Shown piece by piece: positions 1,632-32,273 of a DNA stretch of 33,689 bases. Every line of letters starts with the position of its first letter. Within the stretch, counting starts at the first letter, position 1. A program made the position numbers and the translations under genes. Under the pieces are notes generated by a model. That model searched no databases. It had not been told where the DNA came from and worked only from the letters and a program-made list of their open reading frames with translations. Source of the DNA: Spirochaetaceae bacterium (lineage in GTDB: Bacteria > Spirochaetota > Spirochaetia > CADAEX01); the NCBI GenBank assembly GCA_009780675.1, contig WQZP01000023.1, positions 1 through 33,689 of the forward strand, in the 5' to 3' direction.

Positions 1632-1675
1632 AAAAAAACGCACCTATGGAACATTTTACTGTCCCACAGATGCGT
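1632..1675 (-). terminator. Riboswitch expression-platform terminator
   Basis: A 16-bp stem (1675-1660 with 1653-1638, three G-U pairs), loop GTAAAA, is followed by seven U residues on the minus-strand transcript. Its 5' strand contains the 3' strands of aptamer helices P4 and P1, so aptamer folding and terminator are mutually exclusive. Metal binding should therefore switch the exporter gene on. Confidence 0.88.
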
Positions 1676-1744
1676 GTAATACTCATCTGTTGCTGCACAC
1701 AGCAGCCCAGCCCCATAAACCTAAAGGTTTATCGCCTGCTCAGT
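1658..1744 (-). promoter_or_regulatory. NiCo (czcD-type) cobalt/nickel riboswitch aptamer
   Basis: Read on the minus strand, this leader folds into a four-helix junction. P1 is ACTG/CAGT (1744-1741 with 1661-1658). P2 is ATAAACC/GGTTTAT (1732-1726 with 1721-1715). P3 is GCTGC/GCAGC (1706-1702 with 1696-1692). P4 is ACAGATG/CATCTGT (1690-1684 with 1672-1666). Junction strands AGCAGGCG, GGGGCTGG and GGGACAG match what I recall of the NiCo/czcD class, which controls CDF exporters, and a CDF gene follows. A TATAAT-type -10 lies at 1754-1749, placing the transcript start just before P1. Confidence 0.82.
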
Positions 1745-1828
1745 TTCTATTATATTCTTAGCATATTTTAGCTATTTTGTCAATAGAAAAAATGCATTGT
1801 GAAGCGTAACGTGCAGAAATGCTTATAC

Positions 1829-8654: not shown

Positions 8655-8999
8655 TCATTTTAACAATTTATTTATTAATATATCTTTTAAGTTTCTTCTG
8701 GAATCTATTATTGCCATTACATATACTTTATTTTCAATTATTTTATAATAGATCTTCCATGGGTGTTCAGTTACTTGCCTAAAATCTTTAATATTTTTTG
8801 CTAATAACGCAGGAACATACGAACCACGATATGGAAAATGATCTAGTGTATCTATTTTTCTTTGTATTTTTTCCATTATTGTTAATGCTGTTCTTGGATT
8901 GTTTTCAGCAATAAAATCGATAATTTCATTTAAATCCTTTTCAGCACTTTGAGTCAGTTTTACATGATATTCTTCATATTCCTTGATTTTTTTAGCCAT
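8655..8999 (-). CDS. RelE/ParE-family toxin
   Basis: This 114-residue protein has the RelE/ParE pattern: HVKLTQSAEKDLNEIIDFIA at the N-terminus, then a Leu-rich helix, FPYRGSYVP, and the core strands FRQVTEHPWKIYYKI and VYVMAIIDSRRNL. RelE toxins cut mRNA on the ribosome and ParE toxins poison gyrase; the sequence alone does not decide between these. The ATG overlaps the antitoxin stop by 8 nt, the usual coupled order with antitoxin first. Confidence 0.88.
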   Translation of the reverse strand: MAKKIKEYEEYHVKLTQSAEKDLNEIIDFIAENNPRTALTIMEKIQRKIDTLDHFPYRGSYVPALLAKNIKDFRQVTEHPWKIYYKIIENKVYVMAIIDSRRNLKDILINKLLK

Positions 9000-9276
9000 T
9001 TTTTGTTAATCTTTCTCTTAATTCTTTAAATACTGTTTTTGAATCCTTTACATTTTCATTCTCAATGTCTTTTTCAGACAATTTCAATATGCTTAATAAG
9101 GCAAAAGCGTCTTCATTATCTTGATAAGTATTTATATCCATTAAAACTGCTCTAGCTTCACCATTTTGCGTAATAATTATTGGGTTTTTACGTTCATTTA
9201 CATAGTCCAGCATTTTAGCCGCATTAGTTTTTACATATGAAATAGGTTTTACATTATCTCTTAAATTTAATGCCAT
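8992..9276 (-). CDS. Phd/YefM-family antitoxin
   Basis: This 94-residue protein has the Phd/YefM fold signature near the start: VKPISYVKTNAAKMLDYVNE, then PIIITQNGEARAVLM. The C-terminal acidic helix region is the toxin-binding tail. ATG 9276 is chosen because GGAG lies 7 nt upstream; an upstream in-frame start would add 16 residues without a ribosome binding site. Such antitoxins repress their own operon, usually more strongly in complex with the toxin. Confidence 0.88.
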   Translation of the reverse strand: MALNLRDNVKPISYVKTNAAKMLDYVNERKNPIIITQNGEARAVLMDINTYQDNEDAFALLSILKLSEKDIENENVKDSKTVFKELRERLTKNG

Positions 9277-9423
9277 ATTTTTCTCCAGTACATATAAGAT
9301 GCCATATTTGGTCTTTTTTGTCAATTGTCTTTTATTGTATATTTTTAATAAAACCGGACGTTTTTTATTCCAAAAAATTCAGTCTATTTCGCTAACGTTT
9401 TGAGTTGATGACGTTGCCGACCG

Positions 9424-9768: not shown

Positions 9769-9978
9769 TTACTTCCACGTTATATTTATTTGCTTTGAAT
9801 GCGTTGCACAATCGGATAAATATAGATTTATTAAATTTTGGTATGCTATTCCTGTCACTTCAGCTTGTTTTTTGAAGAAATTTATTGTGTCTATGTCAAC
9901 CCTAATGGAAATTTGTTTTCGTAATTTTTTAACATATGGATTCAATTTTCCTTTTGAAAAATCATATTCTTTCCTCAT
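9769..9978 (-). CDS. brnA: BrnA-family antitoxin
   Basis: This 69-residue ribbon-helix-helix protein begins MRKEYDFSKGKLNPYVKKL and continues KQISIRVDIDTINFFKKQA, the BrnA pattern. It neutralises the BrnT ribonuclease and represses the operon. ATG 9978 has GGAGG 8 nt upstream, located within the last codons of brnT. An alternative in-frame start upstream overlaps brnT and lacks a ribosome binding site. The order toxin then antitoxin is typical for brnTA. Confidence 0.88.
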   Translation of the reverse strand: MRKEYDFSKGKLNPYVKKLRKQISIRVDIDTINFFKKQAEVTGIAYQNLINLYLSDCATHSKQINITWK

Positions 9979-9982
9979 AGTA

Positions 9983-10258
9983 TTAACCTCCATAATTCTT
10001 GGATTCATTCCTGGTTGCTTTCCTTGCGGAAATTATCCTAATAATTTCATCATCTTCCCTATAACAATGGCAAACTACCAATAATTTTAGTAATTTACTT
10101 ATGCCTAAAATTATAAACCTATCTTCATCAATAGAATGATCCGGATCGTGTATTACCTTTGCGTTTGGATCAAAAAATACAGTTTCTGCTTCTTCAAACG
10201 ATACTTTATGATTCTTGATATTACTTTCATTTTTCTTTTGATCCCATATAATTTTCAT
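9983..10258 (-). CDS. brnT: BrnT-family ribonuclease toxin (DUF497)
   Basis: This 91-residue BrnT toxin has the DUF497 signature IIWDQKKNESNIKNHKVSFE, then AETVFFDPNA, DHSIDEDRFIILGIS, and the C-terminal IIRIISARKATRNE. The RelE-like fold cleaves RNA. The ATG has no ribosome binding site, but a consensus promoter places the transcript start at or within a nucleotide of the ATG, so the message is probably leaderless. It is followed by brnA after 4 nt. Confidence 0.9.
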   Translation of the reverse strand: MKIIWDQKKNESNIKNHKVSFEEAETVFFDPNAKVIHDPDHSIDEDRFIILGISKLLKLLVVCHCYREDDEIIRIISARKATRNESKNYGG

Positions 10259-10397: not shown

Positions 10398-11546
10398 TCA
10401 CTCAAAAATCACACCCAGCCAGTGCGCAGGGTCGCTTTTATCTGCTACAATAAGACCTATGTCAACGTTAGCAGTGGTTTCCGCGACCAGCCATCCGACC
10501 CCTTCTGCCTCAAGGCGCGCCCCTGGGCCTGGAATAGCTGCAAGACCCATGGCGTGGGAGTAGTGGCGGGATACCATGATAGCTGCCGGGATGTTTGCCT
10601 GTGCAACAATTATTGCCCAAAGCATGGCACGGCTGTCACTGCCGCCCCTCCCTTCGGTAATGGCAGTAACCAAATTTATAAAATCACTCCCTTCAAGATT
10701 CCTCTCGAATTGGAAGGCCTGTACAAAAGTAAGCGCTCTTTGCACAAAAGCCAGAACATTCGCATCCGTTTCGGTACCACGTGTCGTACTGCTGGGCATA
10801 TTCAGGCTTTGCGCAATCTGCAAAGCAGCGTTCGCGATTCTGTCCCATGAATCCCTGTAGATTGCTCTGTAATAACGTATCCACGCATCCTGCAAATAAG
10901 GAGAAGCCAGGTACAAAGTAAGGAGCCTGAATTCCTGCTCAATCAGCGCCTGCGCATTAAAAGCATCGTGTTCCCGAATCATTGTAGTCAAACCCAGCCC
11001 ACCTGCAAGCGGTACCTCCCTTAGTTCTCCTCTGGGATATGCAAACTCCATTATTGGTCCAGGCCGCCGCGTATCCATCAGCGTAGGCGCAATGGAGTTC
11101 AGGGCAGAAATATGAAACAAGTTTAAATATTCTTTTCCCACAGGCGCGTAAGCAAGGGCAAGTAAAAGGGGAGGGTTTGCTCTTCCATAAGTATTCTCGA
11201 GTTCAATGCCAAGACCCCAGCCCGTCATATTTCCGAAACGCAGTTCCATAATGGCTGCAGCTTTACCCCCATACTCAAAAAAAGATGTGTCGCCTGTGTT
11301 TCCAAGTCTATGGCTTATATCCTGCATCATCTCTTTGATGTTCTGATAGGTTCCATTGTGTACAGTCATGTCGAACATTGTCTCGCTGGGACCTCGAAAC
11401 GAAAAACGGTCAAGTGCATTCCCTTCGACAAACTCATAACCAATCGGCAGGTACAGACTAAAGCCCCAGGTAGCGAAATAGAGTTGATTTGCTGAAAGGA
11501 ATGCTGGAATGAAAAATAATAAAAGCAGGTATAGTTTTAACTTCAT
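10398..11546 (-). CDS. Exported transglutaminase-like protein, Cys-to-Ser variant
   Basis: This 382-residue protein has a signal peptide of about 19 residues (MKLKLYLLLLFFIPAFLSA). Its N-terminal domain (WGFSLYLPIGYEFVEG, then FSFRGPS) recalls outer-membrane-associated binding folds. The C-terminal part, from about residue 260, resembles a transglutaminase/protease core: GRGGSDSRAMLWAII, then RHYSHAMG, then WLVAETT. The position of the catalytic Cys (Cys in the paralogue at 12271-13419) is Ser here, so this copy may be a binding protein or pseudoenzyme. The His and acidic positions remain. The two paralogues align over their full length without gaps, about three quarters identical by eye. Confidence 0.7.
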   Translation of the reverse strand: MKLKLYLLLLFFIPAFLSANQLYFATWGFSLYLPIGYEFVEGNALDRFSFRGPSETMFDMTVHNGTYQNIKEMMQDISHRLGNTGDTSFFEYGGKAAAIMELRFGNMTGWGLGIELENTYGRANPPLLLALAYAPVGKEYLNLFHISALNSIAPTLMDTRRPGPIMEFAYPRGELREVPLAGGLGLTTMIREHDAFNAQALIEQEFRLLTLYLASPYLQDAWIRYYRAIYRDSWDRIANAALQIAQSLNMPSSTTRGTETDANVLAFVQRALTFVQAFQFERNLEGSDFINLVTAITEGRGGSDSRAMLWAIIVAQANIPAAIMVSRHYSHAMGLAAIPGPGARLEAEGVGWLVAETTANVDIGLIVADKSDPAHWLGVIFE

Positions 11547-12270: not shown

Positions 12271-13419
12271 TCACTCAAAAATCACGCCCAACCAGTGCTC
12301 AGGGTCGCTTTGATCCGCTGCAATAAGACCTATCTCAACGTTAACAGTTGTTTCAGCGACCAGCCATCTGACCCCTTCTGTTTCAAAGCGCGCCCCTGGG
12401 CCTGGAATAGCTGCAATACCCATAGCGTGTGAGTATTCCCGGGATACCATGATAGCTGCCGGAATGTTTACCTGTGCAGCAATTATTGCCCAAAGCATGG
12501 CGCGGCTGTCACAGACGCCTCTCCCTTCGGTAATGGCAGTAACCAGATTTATAAAATCACTCCCGTCAAAATTTCTTTCGTATTGGAAGCCCTGCACAAA
12601 AGTAAGCGCCCTTTGCGCAAAATCCAGAACATTCGCATCCATGTCAGTGCTGCGTGTTGCTCTGCCGGCCCTGTTCAGACTTCGTGCAATTTGCAAAGCA
12701 GCGTCCGCAATCCTGTCCCATGAATCCCGGTAAATCATACGGTAATACCGTATCCATGCTTCCCGCCAATGCGGCGAAAAGTAATACATCCTCATGAGCA
12801 GAAATTCCCGCTCAATCAGCTCCTGCGCAATAAAAGCATCGTGTTCCCGAATCATTGCAGTCACACCCAGCCCACCAGCAAGTGGTACCTCCCTTAGTTC
12901 TCCCCGGTTATAGGCGAATTCCATCATTGGTCCAGGCCGCCGCGTATCTATCAGTGTAGGTGCAATTGAGTTCAGGGCAGAAATATGAAGCAAGTCCACG
13001 TTTTCTGTTCCCACAGGCGCATAAGCAAGAGCAAGTAAAAGGGGAGGGTTTGCTCCTCCATCAGTATTCTCGAGTTCAATGCCAAGACCCCAGCCTTCCA
13101 TATTTCCGAAGCGCAGTTTAATAATGGCTGCGGCTTTATCTCCATACTCAAAAAAAGAGGTATCTTCTGTGTTTCCCAATCTATGGCTAATATCTTGCAT
13201 CATCTCTTCGATGTTCTGATATGTTTCATTGAACACAAGCATGTCGAACATTGCATTGCTGGGACCCCGAAACGAAAAGCGGTCAAATGCATTCCCTTCG
13301 ACAAACTCATAACCAATCGGTAAGTAAACTCGAAAGCCCCAGGTAGGGGAATAGAGTTGATTTGCTGACAGGAATGCTGGAATGAAAAATAGTAAAAGCA
13401 GATAGAGTTTTAACTTCAT
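12271..13419 (-). CDS. Exported transglutaminase-like protein with Cys-His-acid set
   Basis: This 382-residue paralogue of the gene at 10398-11546 has the same signal peptide and domain order. Its candidate catalytic set is intact: Cys in GRGVCDSRAML, His in YSHAMG, and Glu in WLVAETT, spaced as in the transglutaminase-like cysteine peptidase/ligase fold. The N-terminal domain carries WGFRVYLPIGYEFVEG. After signal cleavage it would act in the periplasm or at the surface; substrate unknown. The bases upstream of the two starts are nearly identical, so the duplication includes the start region. Confidence 0.72.
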   Translation of the reverse strand: MKLKLYLLLLFFIPAFLSANQLYSPTWGFRVYLPIGYEFVEGNAFDRFSFRGPSNAMFDMLVFNETYQNIEEMMQDISHRLGNTEDTSFFEYGDKAAAIIKLRFGNMEGWGLGIELENTDGGANPPLLLALAYAPVGTENVDLLHISALNSIAPTLIDTRRPGPMMEFAYNRGELREVPLAGGLGVTAMIREHDAFIAQELIEREFLLMRMYYFSPHWREAWIRYYRMIYRDSWDRIADAALQIARSLNRAGRATRSTDMDANVLDFAQRALTFVQGFQYERNFDGSDFINLVTAITEGRGVCDSRAMLWAIIAAQVNIPAAIMVSREYSHAMGIAAIPGPGARFETEGVRWLVAETTVNVEIGLIAADQSDPEHWLGVIFE

Positions 13420-24965: not shown

Positions 24966-25036
24966 TGCCCGATAGTGTAACGGTAACACTCAAGATTCTG
25001 GCTCTTGTTTTGGGGGTTCAAATCCTCCTCGGGCAG
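24966..25036 (+). tRNA. tRNA-Gln (anticodon CTG)
   Basis: The acceptor stem TGCCCGA/TCGGGCA (24966-24972, 25029-25035) is followed by a discriminator G. The D-arm has GTGT...ACAC, and the anticodon arm is CAAGA-TTCTGGC-TCTTG with CTG at positions 34-36. The T-arm is GGGGG-TTCAAAT-CCTCC with one G-U. The 3' CCA is not encoded. A TTGACA lies about 70 bp upstream. The integrase gene begins 143 bp downstream, so the 3' half is the probable attachment core. Confidence 0.95.
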
Positions 25037-25057
25037 CTATTTTTATTAGCAAGTGAA

Positions 25058-25179: not shown

Positions 25180-26334
25180 ATGGATGATTACAGGTTTATT
25201 GAAAGACAAGGTCGAAAAATACAAGTTGTTTTTAGGATATTGCCCGGCAAGGAAATATCAACTGGTACAGATTGCAAAAGTGAAGCTATTAAATTTGCAG
25301 AAAGATATTTGCAAGACTTTGATGTTAAGAAAACGGGGAAGATTCCTACATTTAAAGAAATTGCATATGGCTTTTACGCTAATGATAAATATGGGTATAT
25401 AAAGCAATTAGAGAAAAAAAAGAAATACCATCGAGCTATTCACTGGGCAGAACAAGAGGGGAGGATCCAAAATTATTGGATTCCAAAGTTTGGAAGTTTT
25501 TTAATATCTGCGATAACGGCAAAGATGATTGATAATTGGTATATGGATTTAACAGATTGTCATGGCAAATCAAAGCAGTTAGCAGATAGCACAAAAAATA
25601 AAATACTTTATGCAGGCAAGCCTATTTTTAAAATGGCGGTAAGAGAAAAAATAATCAGAGAAAATCCGACAAGGGAAATTACTAAAATAACCGAAGAAAA
25701 CAAGCCAAGAAAGCCATTTTGTGACTTTGAACTTGCAAAGTTATTTCCGGAAGATGAAAGTGAGTTACTGAAAATATGGCTTACAAGAAAATGGATCAGC
25801 TATTTCTTAATTATGCGTGATACCGGCTGGAGACCTGGAGAAATTGCTGGACTAATAAGGATAAACTATTACCCACACATTGGAGGCGTATACACAGACC
25901 AATCAATTGAGGCATATTCGGGTAGTGTAAAAAAGAAAATAAAAACAACAGACAACGGCAAGGCGTTTAAAATTGGATATTTAAGCGAAGCAACAATAAT
26001 ACAACTTAACAAATATTTGGAAGAAGAAAATCCTGGAATCAATGATTTAATTTTTACCTCTACAAAAAATACAGGATTAAAACCAGAAGTATCACTTAAA
26101 CACTTTAAAGCATCTTGCAAAAGAGCAGGGGTCATTATTGGCGACAGAACACAATATAGTTTGCGCCATACTTTTGATACAAAAATGTTAGAAGGTTTAG
26201 ACAAAGATACAGTTAGTGTCTTAATGGGTCATGTTGCTTATCGACCAGAATATGACCATCGGAGCGCAGAGACATTGCTAAGGCAATATAAGGGCGCACG
26301 AGAAAAGATAGAGCAAAGCTTTAAAATAGGCTGA
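25180..26334 (+). CDS. int: Tyrosine recombinase, phage integrase
   Basis: This 384-residue integrase has a core-binding domain (about 55-165) and a C-terminal catalytic domain. RDTGWRPGEIAGL carries catalytic Arg I, SLRHTFDT carries Arg II, and VLMGHV holds the last His. The nucleophile Tyr is in TLLRQYKG near the C-terminus. The usual HxxR has Tyr in place of the His (QYSLRH), a tolerated variant in some families. No ribosome binding site precedes ATG 25180; the promoter position suggests a leaderless message. It lies directly downstream of tRNA-Gln, reading away from it into the element, as in many tRNA-integrated phages. Confidence 0.9.
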   Translation: MDDYRFIERQGRKIQVVFRILPGKEISTGTDCKSEAIKFAERYLQDFDVKKTGKIPTFKEIAYGFYANDKYGYIKQLEKKKKYHRAIHWAEQEGRIQNYWIPKFGSFLISAITAKMIDNWYMDLTDCHGKSKQLADSTKNKILYAGKPIFKMAVREKIIRENPTREITKITEENKPRKPFCDFELAKLFPEDESELLKIWLTRKWISYFLIMRDTGWRPGEIAGLIRINYYPHIGGVYTDQSIEAYSGSVKKKIKTTDNGKAFKIGYLSEATIIQLNKYLEEENPGINDLIFTSTKNTGLKPEVSLKHFKASCKRAGVIIGDRTQYSLRHTFDTKMLEGLDKDTVSVLMGHVAYRPEYDHRSAETLLRQYKGAREKIEQSFKIG

Positions 26335-27741: not shown

Positions 27742-28581
27742 TTATTTTTGTGAGCTTATTTTATATGAGGTATAAATCCCTTGAATTTCATATTCGGTGG
27801 AATCTACTTCTATTTTTTTATCCGATCCATCTTCGTAGCATAAAAATGTTTTTCCATTTTTAATTAAAATCCTTTTTAGAGTGGAGGAATTTTCAAATCT
27901 TACAAGCATTATTTCTCCATTTATAGCCTCATAAGCTTTTCTAATTAAAACAATATCTCCGTCATTTATTCCTGCCTCTACCATTGAATATCCTTTAATC
28001 GTCACCCATAAGTGTTCTTCTGGTTTCCCCTTTAATAGCTTTATAGGGAATGGGAGTTGGTCTGTTATCGGGTTTGTATCTATTTCTAATGGTTTACTTG
28101 CTGCTGTGCGTCCATAATGCGGGATCATTACCATTTCTCCTTCATCAAAAAATTTAACATTATTATCTATTTTATATTTAGGTGCTTTTTCAGTGACAAA
28201 ATCGATTGTTTTATTCTCACCAAATACTGGCTTTTCATCTCTATTTGCAAGTTTGTGGTTAAGTAGGAGCATAATTTCATCTTTCTCTTTTGGCGATAAT
28301 TTCTCTATTTTTTTGGCTATTTCAATGATTTCGGGTGCAATAGCTTTATCATCTTTACCATGCATAAAATAAGGTACTGACATATTGAATAATCGAGCTA
28401 TTTTTATAGCACTTATAATATCTGGCAATCTATCTTTTTTAACCCATTGGCTTAATGTTTGTTGTTTAATTCCTATCCGTTCAGCAATCCATGTCCATGT
28501 TGTATTTTGAGAATCTACTATATCCTGTATTCGCTGCCAACAATCTAACACTGTTTTATTATCGGATAAAAAAAACAACAA
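27742..28581 (-). CDS. Phage repressor, helix-turn-helix plus S24 peptidase domain
   Basis: This 279-residue CI-type repressor has an N-terminal helix-turn-helix (about 22-65: WTWIAERIGIKQQTLSQWVK, then RLPDIISAIKIARLF). A linker follows, then a C-terminal S24/LexA-like domain with Ser in GYSMVEAGINDGDIVLI and Lys in STLKRI, the Ser-Lys dyad. The expected cleavage region reads GRTAASKP, where family members often have Ala-Gly; here it would be Ala-Ser. The frame opens with TTG at 28581, with no ribosome binding site, and overlaps operator 1; a GTG at 28554 is the alternative start. It is divergent from the early genes and should keep the lysogenic state until RecA-stimulated self-cleavage. 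Confidence 0.88.
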   Translation of the reverse strand: MLFFLSDNKTVLDCWQRIQDIVDSQNTTWTWIAERIGIKQQTLSQWVKKDRLPDIISAIKIARLFNMSVPYFMHGKDDKAIAPEIIEIAKKIEKLSPKEKDEIMLLLNHKLANRDEKPVFGENKTIDFVTEKAPKYKIDNNVKFFDEGEMVMIPHYGRTAASKPLEIDTNPITDQLPFPIKLLKGKPEEHLWVTIKGYSMVEAGINDGDIVLIRKAYEAINGEIMLVRFENSSTLKRILIKNGKTFLCYEDGSDKKIEVDSTEYEIQGIYTSYKISSQK

Positions 28582-28650
28582 ATGTTGAAAAAAAAACTTG
28601 ACAATACTACATGTGTTGTATAATATGTCAATAAATACAACAAACGTTGT
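28575..28650. promoter_or_regulatory. Prophage switch: three operators and overlapping divergent promoters
   Basis: Operators with consensus ACAAC-N4-GTTGT lie at 28575-28588 (one mismatch), 28606-28619 (one mismatch) and 28637-28650 (perfect). Centre-to-centre spacing is 31 bp in both intervals. The rightward promoter is TTGACA (28598-28603), 17 bp, TAATAT (28621-28626). The leftward promoter is TTGACA (28631-28626), 16 bp, TAGTAT (28609-28604). Both run through the middle operator. Confidence 0.82.
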
Positions 28651-28651
28651 T

Positions 28652-28695
28652 AAGTAATGCTAGCATTACTTAGATACAGATTGACATCTGTATCT
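28652..28695 (+). other. Two adjacent hairpins at the start of the early transcript
   Basis: A perfect 20-bp palindrome (28652-28671, AAGTAATGC/GCATTACTT around a TA centre) is followed without a gap by a 9-bp hairpin AGATACAGA/TCTGTATCT with loop TTGACA (28672-28695). They begin about 20 nt after the predicted rightward start. Neither has a U-tract, so they are not simple terminators. Confidence 0.75.
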
Positions 28696-28704
28696 AATAA
28701 AGAA

Positions 28705-28816
28705 CCTTGCCAAAGTTCGGCAGGGGGAAAAGAGCAATTAAGAGGGAGTCAGGAACGTCTTAATTGCTGCAAGGCAACAGCCCTCAAGGAATCCTGACTC
28801 CGAGAGGGCATTTTTT
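28705..28816 (+). ncRNA. Structured early leader with complementary loops and a terminator
   Basis: Hairpin A is an 11-bp helix, 28733-28743 with 28758-28768, with a 14-nt loop. Hairpin C is GCCCTC/GAGGGC (28780-28785 with 28804-28809), followed by TTTTTT (28811-28816), an intrinsic terminator. The loop of A contains GGAGTCAGGA (28745-28754), perfectly complementary to TCCTGACTCC (28792-28801) in the loop of C. A third hairpin CCTTGCC/GGCAGGG lies upstream (28705-28724), and its CCTTGC can instead pair with GCAAGG at 28769-28774. Motifs TGCAAGGC and CCTCAAGG recur in the second leader. Confidence 0.65.
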
Positions 28817-28938
28817 ATTGGTTTGGTGGCGAGGTTTACAGTGTTACGGCCTGAAGCTTTTAAGCCTGACTTTTATTGTAATTGAAAAATCCTGTCTTTG
28901 GCAGGAAGGGCGAAGCTATATTCAGGGGGGTAATAATA

Positions 28939-29181
28939 ATGGAAACCGCTATTAAAGAAATTAAAGAAATAAAAACAATAGTAGATGCTGTTGTCCATGT
29001 ATTTGATAGCTATGCAGTAGGGTATAAATTTTACGGACATCAACTGCATAGAGATGTAACTCGCATATATCCAGCCGCTGAAAATGCCTATACAGATACG
29101 TTGCTCAGGGCTTTAAGAAGGTATCGCAGAAGTTCTTTTATAGCAGTAAATCAGAAAAGTTTATACGAAAAAGTTGGTTAA
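28939..29181 (+). CDS. Small phage early protein, possible winged helix
   Basis: This 80-residue protein starts at ATG 28939, with GGGGGG 8 nt upstream. After a charged N-terminal helix (METAIKEIKEIKTIVDAV) it has GYKFYGHQLHRDVTRIYP and YTDTLLRALRRYRR, a helix arrangement that could be a winged helix with a basic recognition helix. I do not recognise a named family. It is the first gene after the attenuator-like leader, the place where phages put early regulators. Confidence 0.6.
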   Translation: METAIKEIKEIKTIVDAVVHVFDSYAVGYKFYGHQLHRDVTRIYPAAENAYTDTLLRALRRYRRSSFIAVNQKSLYEKVG

Positions 29182-29267: not shown

Positions 29268-29609
29268 ATGGGCGTAACTTTAGCAACCTTAGAAGATATA
29301 GAAGAAGTAAAAGCTGATATTAAAAGGATAAAAGAAGATATTAGCACGTTATTAACTAAGCTGGTGGATGGAACTGTTAGCAAAAAAGAGCTTGCTCGAA
29401 GAAATGGACTTTCGGTAAGTGCTTTAAACCTTGATGACAATCGGCATCTTATGCCTAATTTTGGTAAATCAGATTTTGTTGGAAAGCGCAAGACAAGGTG
29501 GAAAATTGAAACGGTTGAAGCATGGGAAAAGATACCCGAAGATGAACGCCAAAAGATATGGCAGTTGATGGATAGGGTAGATCGCGAGAAAATTATAAGA
29601 GCGTCATAG
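29268..29609 (+). CDS. Phage helix-turn-helix protein with N-terminal coiled coil
   Basis: This 113-residue protein starts at ATG 29268 with GGAGG 6 nt upstream. Residues about 8-40 form a heptad-like charged helix (EEVKADIKRIKEDISTLLTK). Residues 45-65 look like a helix-turn-helix (VSKKELARRNGLSVSALNLD), and the C-terminal part (TRWKIETVEAWEKIPEDERQ) suits excisionase-like or MerR-like DNA-binding proteins. It may act in excision or early regulation. The helicase-methyltransferase leader follows. Confidence 0.65.
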   Translation: MGVTLATLEDIEEVKADIKRIKEDISTLLTKLVDGTVSKKELARRNGLSVSALNLDDNRHLMPNFGKSDFVGKRKTRWKIETVEAWEKIPEDERQKIWQLMDRVDREKIIRAS

Positions 29610-29630: not shown

Positions 29631-29726
29631 TGCAAGGCTGCTTCCGGTAGCAGTAATTACCGGATTCCCCTCCTCAAGGGAAATAGTTACATTGCGTTGC
29701 TGGGCTGCATCTGGCAGCGCATTTTT
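29631..29726 (+). ncRNA. Second structured leader with terminator before the helicase-methyltransferase
   Basis: It has TGCAAGGC (29631-29638) and CCTCAAGG (29672-29679), the same motifs and order as in the first early leader. A hairpin CTGCT/AGCAG (29638-29653) exposes TCCGGT, which extends to a 7-nt match with TACCGGA at 29658-29664. It ends in a 9-bp hairpin TGCGTTGCT/GGCAGCGCA (29693-29721, two G-U) followed by TTTTT (29722-29726), a terminator shape 13 nt before the next start codon. Confidence 0.6.
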
Positions 29727-29738
29727 AAAGGGCTAAAA

Positions 29739-32273
29739 GTGAATTATCAAGAGTTTCTAAAAGATAAGATAAAAATTGCTCCAGATTCGGGATTTGATAC
29801 AGCTCCAGATGAAGTACACCCAATTTTAAAACCGCATCAAAAAGATATTGTTCTTTGGGCGGTAAGGGGTGGTAGACGTGCAGTATTCGCATCTTTTGGA
29901 CTTGGTAAAACAATGATGCAACTTGAAATTGTACGCATTACCCGCGAGAAAGCTGGGGGCATGGGTTTAATCGTTGCGCCTCTTGGAGTACGCCAAGAGT
30001 TTATGCGTGATGCTGTAAAACTGGATATTAAAATAAAGTTTATACGCCGTATAGAAGAAGCTGATGATCCCGAAGGTATTTATATCACAAATTACGAAAC
30101 TGTTCGCGATGGGAAATTAGACCCACGTATATTTACCGTAGCGAGTCTTGATGAAGCGTCTTGTCTTCGAGGTTTTGGTGGAACAAAAACATTCCGTGAG
30201 TTTATGGGATTATTCGCTGGTGATTATAAAACAATGAATGAGCGGATACGTTCAGACGGTGTAAAATATCGTTTTGTTGCGACTGCGACACCTTCGCCAA
30301 ACGAATATATCGAGCTATTAGCATACTCGGCATTTTTGGGCGTCATGGATGTATCGCAAGCAAAAACAAGATTTTTTAAACGAGATTCTACAAAGGCTGA
30401 TAAATTAACGATTCATGCACATAAAGAAGAAGAGTTTTGGTTGTGGGTGTCAAGTTGGGGACTATTTATACAAAAGCCATCAGACATAGGATATTCAGAT
30501 GTAGGATATGCATTGCCAGAAATGGAAATACATTGGCACGAAATACCGGATAATCATGAAAAAAATACAGAAACAGAACTTAATGGACAATATAAGCTTC
30601 TAAAATCACAAGCTGTTGGCTTACTTGAGGCATCAAAAGAAAAGCGTGATAGCTTGTCAAGTCGAATTGAAAAAATGCTTGCAATTAGAAATATTGATCC
30701 TTCTGCACACAGAATTATATGGCATGATTTAGAAAATGAACGTCATGCGATAGAAAAGGCTATACCTGAATGTGTATCAGTTTATGGTTCGCAAGATTTA
30801 GACGAACGCGAAGAGGCTATTATAAAGTTCTCTGATGGCAAAATACAAGAGCTTGCTGCGAAGCCTGTTATTGCTGGTTCTGGTTGTAATTTTCAGCGTC
30901 ATTGTGCATGGGCGATATTTCTCGGCATAGGTTACAAGTTTAATGATTTTATACAGGCAATACACCGCATATTCCGGTATTTACAAGAGAAAAAAGTGCG
31001 CATAGATATTATTCACACAGAATCAGAACGAGCTATAAAAGCAACACTTTTGCACAAATGGGAACAGCATAAACATACAAGCGCAAAAATGGCAGAAATA
31101 ATAAAACAATACGGATTATCTCATGCTGCAATTGCGGAAAAAATGAAAAGGAGAATAGGCGTGGAAAGACTTGAGGTTAACGGAAAGCGGTACAGGGCAA
31201 TTTTAAATGATTGCATACTTGAAACTAAAAATATGGAAGATAACAGCATTGATTTAATTTTAACGTCAATCCCATTCTCTACACAATACGAATACTCTCC
31301 CAACTATAGCGATTTAGGACATACTGACAATAACGAGCATTTTTTTAAGCATTTTGAATATTTAACGCCAAACCTGTTGCGCATACTTAAGCCAGGCAGA
31401 GTTGCCGCAATACACGTTAAAGATCGTATTGTACCAGGTGGATTAACAGGGCTTGGCTATCAGACGGTTTATCCTTTTCATGCAAAATGTATTGATCATT
31501 TTATTCAACACGGCTTTGGGTATATGGGAATGAAAACAATTGTAACTGATGTTGTGCGTGAAAATAATCAAACATATAGGCTTGGGTGGAGTGAGCAGTG
31601 TAAAGATGGTACAAAAATGGGCGTTGGTATGCCGGAATATTTACTATTATTTAGAAAAACACCAACTGATACAATAAATGCTTACGCGGATAATCCTGTA
31701 CTTAAAAACAAACAAAACTATACCCGCAGCCGATGGCAGGTTGATGCGCATGGCTTTACGAGATCAAGCGGTAACAGACTTTTAACGCCAGAAGAACTGG
31801 AACAGTTACCACATGAAGCATTGTTCAAATGGTTTAGAGATTATAATTTACAAAATATTTATGATTTTGAACATCACGTCAAAGTCGGCGAATCATTAGA
31901 CGAATACAAAAGACTCCCTACAAGTTTTATGCTATTACAGCCACCTTCGTGGAGTGATGAAGTATGGAGTGATGTCGCAAGAATGCGAACTCTTAATATG
32001 ATGCAGGAAAAACGCGGCCAAGAGCAGCATCTTTGCCCTCTCCAGTTTGATATCTGCGACAGAGTAATAGAACAATTTTCAATGAAAAACGAAACAGTGC
32101 TTGATCCTTTCGGCGGAATTATGAGCGTACCTTATCGAGCAATTTTAAAAGAACGCAAAGGCATTGGTATCGAGTTAAGCGATAAATATTTTTATGACGG
32201 CTGTTATTATTTAAAAGCAGCAGAGGAAGAAATGTCGATGCCAAGCTTGTTTGAAACAGAAGGAACAGCATGA
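29739..32273 (+). CDS. SF2 helicase fused to a beta-class DNA methyltransferase
   Basis: The GTG start at 29739 (AAGGG upstream) is chosen because it lies after the terminator hairpin; the frame is open 14 codons earlier. The 844-residue protein has two enzymes. Residues about 25-455 are an SNF2/DEAD-like helicase: Walker A FGLGKT (53-58), Walker B LDEAS (137-141), motif III ATATPS (181-186), and a late motif QAIHRIFRYLQ. Residues about 475-844 are an amino-methyltransferase in the beta order: motif IV LILTSIPFSTQY (507-518), then motif I VLDPFGGIMSVPY (787-799). Two usual Gly/Pro positions differ (TSIPF for TSPPY, GIM for GIG). No nuclease domain is present, but a VRR-NUC gene overlaps its end. 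Confidence 0.85.
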   Translation: MNYQEFLKDKIKIAPDSGFDTAPDEVHPILKPHQKDIVLWAVRGGRRAVFASFGLGKTMMQLEIVRITREKAGGMGLIVAPLGVRQEFMRDAVKLDIKIKFIRRIEEADDPEGIYITNYETVRDGKLDPRIFTVASLDEASCLRGFGGTKTFREFMGLFAGDYKTMNERIRSDGVKYRFVATATPSPNEYIELLAYSAFLGVMDVSQAKTRFFKRDSTKADKLTIHAHKEEEFWLWVSSWGLFIQKPSDIGYSDVGYALPEMEIHWHEIPDNHEKNTETELNGQYKLLKSQAVGLLEASKEKRDSLSSRIEKMLAIRNIDPSAHRIIWHDLENERHAIEKAIPECVSVYGSQDLDEREEAIIKFSDGKIQELAAKPVIAGSGCNFQRHCAWAIFLGIGYKFNDFIQAIHRIFRYLQEKKVRIDIIHTESERAIKATLLHKWEQHKHTSAKMAEIIKQYGLSHAAIAEKMKRRIGVERLEVNGKRYRAILNDCILETKNMEDNSIDLILTSIPFSTQYEYSPNYSDLGHTDNNEHFFKHFEYLTPNLLRILKPGRVAAIHVKDRIVPGGLTGLGYQTVYPFHAKCIDHFIQHGFGYMGMKTIVTDVVRENNQTYRLGWSEQCKDGTKMGVGMPEYLLLFRKTPTDTINAYADNPVLKNKQNYTRSRWQVDAHGFTRSSGNRLLTPEELEQLPHEALFKWFRDYNLQNIYDFEHHVKVGESLDEYKRLPTSFMLLQPPSWSDEVWSDVARMRTLNMMQEKRGQEQHLCPLQFDICDRVIEQFSMKNETVLDPFGGIMSVPYRAILKERKGIGIELSDKYFYDGCYYLKAAEEEMSMPSLFETEGTA

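Follow-up and report, generated by a model that had tools for sequence, protein, structure and literature searches.

Loop-loop kissing decides whether a terminator forms in the leaders of the plasmid attenuators pT181 and pIP501, where an antisense RNA made from the opposite strand serves as the partner in the kiss. Phages, too, use RNA to control their early transcripts. In the satellite phage P4, premature termination is controlled by an RNA that pairs with sites in the leader (PMC4825925), and the heteroimmunity of P1 and P7 uses c4 RNA (PMC12197685). The put RNA of HK022 is about 70 nt long, contains two stem-loops and binds RNA polymerase (PMC9378689). Skipping-rope RNA (RF02924) is a small phage-associated RNA that contains a loop-loop pseudoknot (PMC7779021, PMC8501573).

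We describe here an early prophage leader in which the loop of one hairpin is exactly complementary to the loop of the intrinsic terminator that follows it. On the sequence evidence, we propose that this element would be a kissing-loop attenuator, placed in an early lytic leader between a repressor-controlled promoter and the early genes and acting by antitermination in cis. Taken as a whole, this proposal has in our judgment an even chance of being correct; its parts are graded separately below.

The early leader and its setting

The left part of the prophage lies within the window, which is the whole 33,689-nt stretch of DNA analyzed. A leader of about 300 nt separates the promoter on the repressor side from a rightward early operon, and both hairpin A and the terminator are inside it (Table 1). 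Transcription is expected to start near 28631. The divergent S24 repressor presumably binds the ACAAC...GTTG repeats around the promoter.

Table 1. Features of the early leader and the neighboring prophage region, in window positions
Feature	Position	Strand	Description
tRNA-Gln	24966-25037		Prophage left part
Tyrosine integrase gene	25180-26334		Prophage left part
S24/HTH CI-like repressor gene	27742-28581	-	Divergent
Operator-like ACAAC...GTTG repeats	28575-28650		Around early promoter; 28575-28587 and inverted repeat 28606-28621/28635-28650
Early promoter	28598-28626	+	TTGACA 28598-28603, TATAAT/TAATAT 28619-28626; consensus match only
Hairpin H2	28670-28697	+	TTAGATACAGAT-TGAC-ATCTGTATCTAA
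Hairpin H3	28705-28725	+	CCTTGCC-AAAGTTC-GGCAGGG; same in both copies
Hairpin A	28733-28768	+	11-bp stem, 14-nt loop; 5' arm AGCAATTAAGA 28733-28743; loop GGGAGTCAGGAACG 28744-28757; 3' arm TCTTAATTGCT 28758-28768
Kissing strand k	28745-28754	+	GGAGTCAGGA, in hairpin A loop
Intrinsic terminator	28780-28819	+	6-bp stem GCCCTC 28780-28785/GAGGGC 28804-28809; 18-nt loop AAGGAATCCTGACTCCGA 28786-28803; then ATTTTTTATT
Kissing strand k'	28792-28801	+	TCCTGACTCC, in terminator loop
Conserved untranslated leader 3' of terminator	28826-28917	+	92/94 aligned columns identical in second prophage
First early gene	28939-29181	+	80 aa; without family match; second-prophage homologue 65% at amino acid level
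113-aa gene	29268-29609		Early operon, rightward
Helicase-methylase gene	29697-32273		Early operon, rightward
VRR-NUC nuclease gene			Early operon, rightward

The stretch from 28640 to 28825 is unusually structured as a whole, with a folding energy of -69.2 kcal/mol (z = -6.9). Within it, the terminator was overlooked by a stock terminator scan because the loop limit of that scan is 8 nt. When free, the terminator loop can form an optional upper stem, GGA/TCC. Hairpin H3, which precedes hairpin A, might offer RNA polymerase or a factor a constant site. A candidate leader peptide, running from the ATG at 28656 to a stop in the terminator loop, was rejected: there is no ribosome site upstream, and the frame is lost after the variable island described below.

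Several other features were observed in the window. A second structured stretch precedes the helicase-methylase gene at 29644-29727 (and lies from 10847 onward in L009). In the sister prophage, three pairs of its hairpin CCGGTA-GCAGTAAT-TACCGG have changed on both sides in a compensatory manner (CCGTGT/ACACGG), and the loop GGCTGCATC of the terminator-like hairpin that comes after it can pair with the CCGGTA hairpin by only 4 nt. A NiCo riboswitch (1657-1753, minus strand, 76 bits) lies directly 5' of a leftward cation-efflux-type gene (699-1643). Two pairs of small genes that by eye look like toxin-antitoxin pairs are found at 8655-9324 and 9769-10258 on the minus strand (ParE/RelE-Phd-like and BrnT-BrnA-like), and two near-duplicate genes of 382 aa each lie in tandem at 10398-11546 and 12271-13419 (minus strand).

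Loop complementarity and its conservation

The first-pass annotation of this DNA had pointed to complementary 10-nt stretches in the loops of hairpin A and the terminator. The match is exact as it was described: k and k' are perfect reverse complements, and the complementarity stops at 10 nt on both sides. That such a match is very unlikely by chance was borne out by shuffling the loop letters over 200,000 rounds, which gave a match of at least 10 nt at a frequency of 1e-5 for the window copy and never for a second copy of the element. Among 189 pairs of a hairpin and a terminator in a 400-kb sample of the same genome, no match exceeded 9 nt, a length seen once (permutation expectation, 0.08), and among 716 such pairs in 80 viral contigs the maximum was again 9 nt, seen once (expectation, 0.12). 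Matches of 8-9 nt thus do occur among hundreds of pairs, as would be expected if the complementarity had arisen between the hairpins by chance. Against that view, 10 nt are matched in both copies, at about 1e-5 each and with differing sequence. We regard coincidence as extremely improbable, and the second copy by itself already disfavors it.

This second copy is the one relative of the leader that a whole-genome search found in the same genome. It lies on contig C15, within a separate prophage that has a tRNA-Val and an integrase of its own, an unrelated-looking repressor and different operators. Each copy lies directly 3' of the repressor-side promoter and 5' of the first early gene. Hairpin A of the second copy consists of AGCTTTTAAGT, a loop of GAAGTGTGCG followed by GTG, and ACTTAAAAGCT; its terminator consists of GCCATC, a loop of AAAGAAG, CGCACACTTC and GGA, and GATGGC followed by TTTTTTTT. 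The first-pass annotation had held that loss of complementarity in relatives would speak against a functional pairing. In the one relative found, the loops GAAGTGTGCG and CGCACACTTC are complementary at 10 of 10 positions, an outcome that favors the pairing.

A structural alignment of the two copies showed that 5 of the 10 loop-loop pairs are altered on both sides, as are 3 of the 11 stem A pairs and 1 of the 6 pairs of the terminator stem. The kiss and the two stems therefore hold nine two-sided compensatory changes, and none of their pairs is broken or altered on one side only, in what is a single comparison of two homologous copies from one genome. The upper stem of H2 has three two-sided changes and one broken pair in the second copy and retains its TGAC loop. 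The spacing is also kept: in loop A the paired stretch is preceded by 0-1 nt and followed by 3 nt, in the terminator loop it is flanked by 6-7 nt and 2-3 nt, and the linker measures 10-11 nt. Finally, the upper stem of the terminator can pair in both copies, GGA/TCC being replaced by GAA/TTC (GAAG/CTTC) in the second.

These changes are confined to an island. The leader flanking it is 98-100% identical between the prophages (45 of 45 bases in the 5' flank, from TATCTAATAAAG to GAGC), the variable segment between the flanks has an identity of only about 63% and the following gene one of about 70%, and near-identity of the two contigs resumes at about 29660. Besides constraint, recent exchange between the prophages may have contributed to the identical flanks. 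Either way, it is hard to explain without selection on pairing why almost all differences within the island preserve it.

The main non-selective alternative is template switching between nearby inverted repeats, which would have copied the complement of one loop into the other. Template switching yields several compensatory-looking changes at once, and the comparison is of two sequences only. It would, however, require separate events on loops of two different stems, in both copies, leaving the same spacing behind, and stems A and T have also changed in a compensatory manner while the flanks were untouched. We consider this origin very unlikely. Because the element is located before the first early genes and the match is kept although its sequence has changed, selected pairing is well supported, and loop-loop pairing as such, whatever the direction of its effect, is very likely.

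The two copies were the only matches to the leader across all of the collections searched. No leader homologue was found among INPHARED phages or plasmids, in IMG/VR with exact and relaxed patterns, in GTDB contigs searched with a pattern and with the 80-aa protein, or in 11 genomes of the family and order, 393 of the phylum and 395 of the class. A few other genomes encode better relatives of the 80-aa protein; the one that was inspected is without the leader, and a hairpin finder detected no such element in the other genomes with better relatives. Short matches in two further genomes (L013 and L014) proved on inspection not to be the leader. In coding-looking sequence of another genome (L013:796-819), 24 nt exactly match the conserved leader 3' of the terminator, possibly by chance.

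As a general class, phage terminators of this design showed no overall excess of loop matches beyond 7-8 nt, and single candidates were L053, L112 and L064. The viral contig L053 (4163-4270; also L145) carries a 14-bp hairpin and a strong terminator of 14-16 bp upstream of a ParB-like gene, with loops that match over 11 nt. This stretch is identical between the two contigs, the flanks of which are 93-95% identical. It has no sequence homology to the leader and a different loop spacing, and covariation is known for the leader only. The look-alike may be analogous or a product of chance; given its existence, the design may have had more than one origin. On the viral contig L112 (9885-9980), a hairpin and a terminator have loops that match over 8 nt, or about 12 nt with a bulge.

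Possible action of the leader RNA in cis and in trans

A regulatory role of the element is probable from its position. The first-pass annotation had suggested a regulated terminator controlling all early genes. The part of this that holds up is a selected loop-loop pairing that would bear on the terminator; control of all early genes would follow from position. Action in cis on the adjacent terminator is, on balance, likely.

We envisage that loop A would pair with the terminator loop in the nascent RNA as the latter leaves RNA polymerase. The kiss would then occupy bases needed for the upper stem of the terminator, so that terminator folding would be delayed and read-through into the early genes favored. 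Were loop A occupied, for example by another RNA or by a factor, transcription would stop with a leader RNA of about 185 nt. The kiss and the upper stem use the same 3' loop bases and are thus alternative states. Because the upper stem stays pairable in both copies, both states are suggested to matter.

The timing of exposure was estimated with 10-14 nt of RNA shielded by the polymerase and with nearest-neighbor energies that ignore the cost of loop constraint. On these assumptions, the loop-loop duplex contributes -17 to -18.5 kcal/mol and can form at the latest when the polymerase is one or two bases from the release point; the exposed part of the terminator then contributes about -1 to -5 kcal/mol. 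Since the loops could pair before the terminator folds, and since the kiss takes bases of the upper stem, we lean toward antitermination, although we hold this direction tentatively and give it somewhat less than even odds. The conserved spacing would allow both stems to stand side by side and kiss within one molecule. Usual kissing loops have 5-7 bp (PMC10907184), and because 10 bp with both stems closed would exceed this, the actual contact may be shorter than 10 bp.

The same contact could have the opposite sign. The kiss would then organize a terminator that folds slowly on account of its 18-20-nt loop, making hairpin A a termination enhancer and leaving the operon off by default. The loop is indeed far bigger than usual, as its escape from the stock scan illustrates, and the anatomy suggests linkers long enough for both stems and the kiss. 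However, the terminator loop retains an upper stem of its own, of 3-4 bp, in both copies; outside help to close the loop is therefore unneeded, and the kiss competes with this stem. We consider termination enhancement unlikely.

A further alternative to antitermination in cis is that the terminated leader acts in trans, as a small RNA that pairs with the leaders of other copies. Its targets would be superinfecting or co-resident related phages, and the loop sequence would set immunity specificity, as in the RNA immunity of P4 or P1, for which the P4 leader pairing (PMC4825925) and the P1/P7 c4 RNA (PMC12197685) are precedents. The two alleles cannot cross-pair: their best duplexes reach -4.7 and -3.6 kcal/mol versus about -20 kcal/mol for matched loops. 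These orthogonal loops occur in co-resident leaders that are near-identical outside the island and that follow fully different repressor sides. Such non-cross-pairing fits a specificity determinant, and independent drift would give the same result. What speaks against a trans role is that the cis partner, on the same RNA at a distance of 37 nt, should outcompete any other, that repression of the promoter in the lysogen would presumably leave little RNA, and that every further 10-mer target site in the genome is in coding-looking sequence. Because the cis partner is always nearby, we rate action in trans below action in cis and think it quite unlikely. That the loop pair would be an immunity tag, by which the terminated leader RNA silences or releases the early operon of its own kind only, is likewise improbable; related phages would on this view share the leader and differ in mutually orthogonal kissing pairs. 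If the loops did set specificity between co-resident prophages, RNA would complement the repressor as a second layer of heteroimmunity.

The cis attenuator leads to a simple prediction. Replacing both loops with those of the sister prophage should preserve function, and replacing one should not.

Comparison with known RNA systems

No match was found to any of 4227 Rfam families at the gathering score, riboswitches included, nor was there a match of put-like kind. A terminator loop that kisses a neighboring hairpin, and whose sequence can be rewritten as long as the two remain matched, would if confirmed be a simple programmable read-through switch, and phage early control of this form is not catalogued in Rfam.

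Skipping-rope RNA was considered and rejected. The window is without a match to RF02924, and the best score in the genome is 15.8 bits, at another place, against a gathering score of 36.7 bits and 60-63 bits for true members. In skipping-rope RNA two hairpins are enclosed by an outer closing stem and the terminator is separate; in the leader, the terminator itself forms the second hairpin, and an outer stem is absent. Its sequence is also conserved, unlike the variable loops of the leader.

The leader resembles HK022 put in that a structured RNA opens an early phage transcript, and put affects terminators. Nevertheless, put acts by binding RNA polymerase (at the beta' zinc domain) and not by pairing with a terminator loop. 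By analogy, the constant hairpin H3 could be put-like.

In the cobalamin riboswitch contact L5-L13, as here, a 5' loop kisses the loop of a regulatory hairpin in cis and alters expression (PMC10907184). The riboswitch has an aptamer, none of which was found in the leader, and its contact typically has 5-7 bp compared with 10 here. In the riboswitch example the target hairpin bears the ribosome site (PMC10907184), whereas here it is the terminator.

The CI RNA and the seqA, seqB and seqC sites of P4 share with the present locus an early phage leader in which termination is tied to pairing within the leader (PMC4825925). Pairing sequences in an early leader are found here from sequence and covariation, and their effect on termination would follow from their placement. 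P4 employs a processed trans-acting RNA with two targets; the present leader employs adjacent hairpin loops, one of which is the terminator, and one target site was found for it, with no further non-coding copy of the 10-mers in the genome. No sequence match was found in Rfam or the phage collection searched.

The leader differs from the pT181 and pIP501 attenuators in having both loops on one strand. As judged from its sequence, it combines complementary loops, one of them that of the terminator, with covariation between the two, as would be expected of a kissing-loop attenuator, and it does so in an arrangement, the terminator's own loop serving as partner of a same-strand neighbor, that is found in none of the P4, c4, cobalamin and put descriptions compared.
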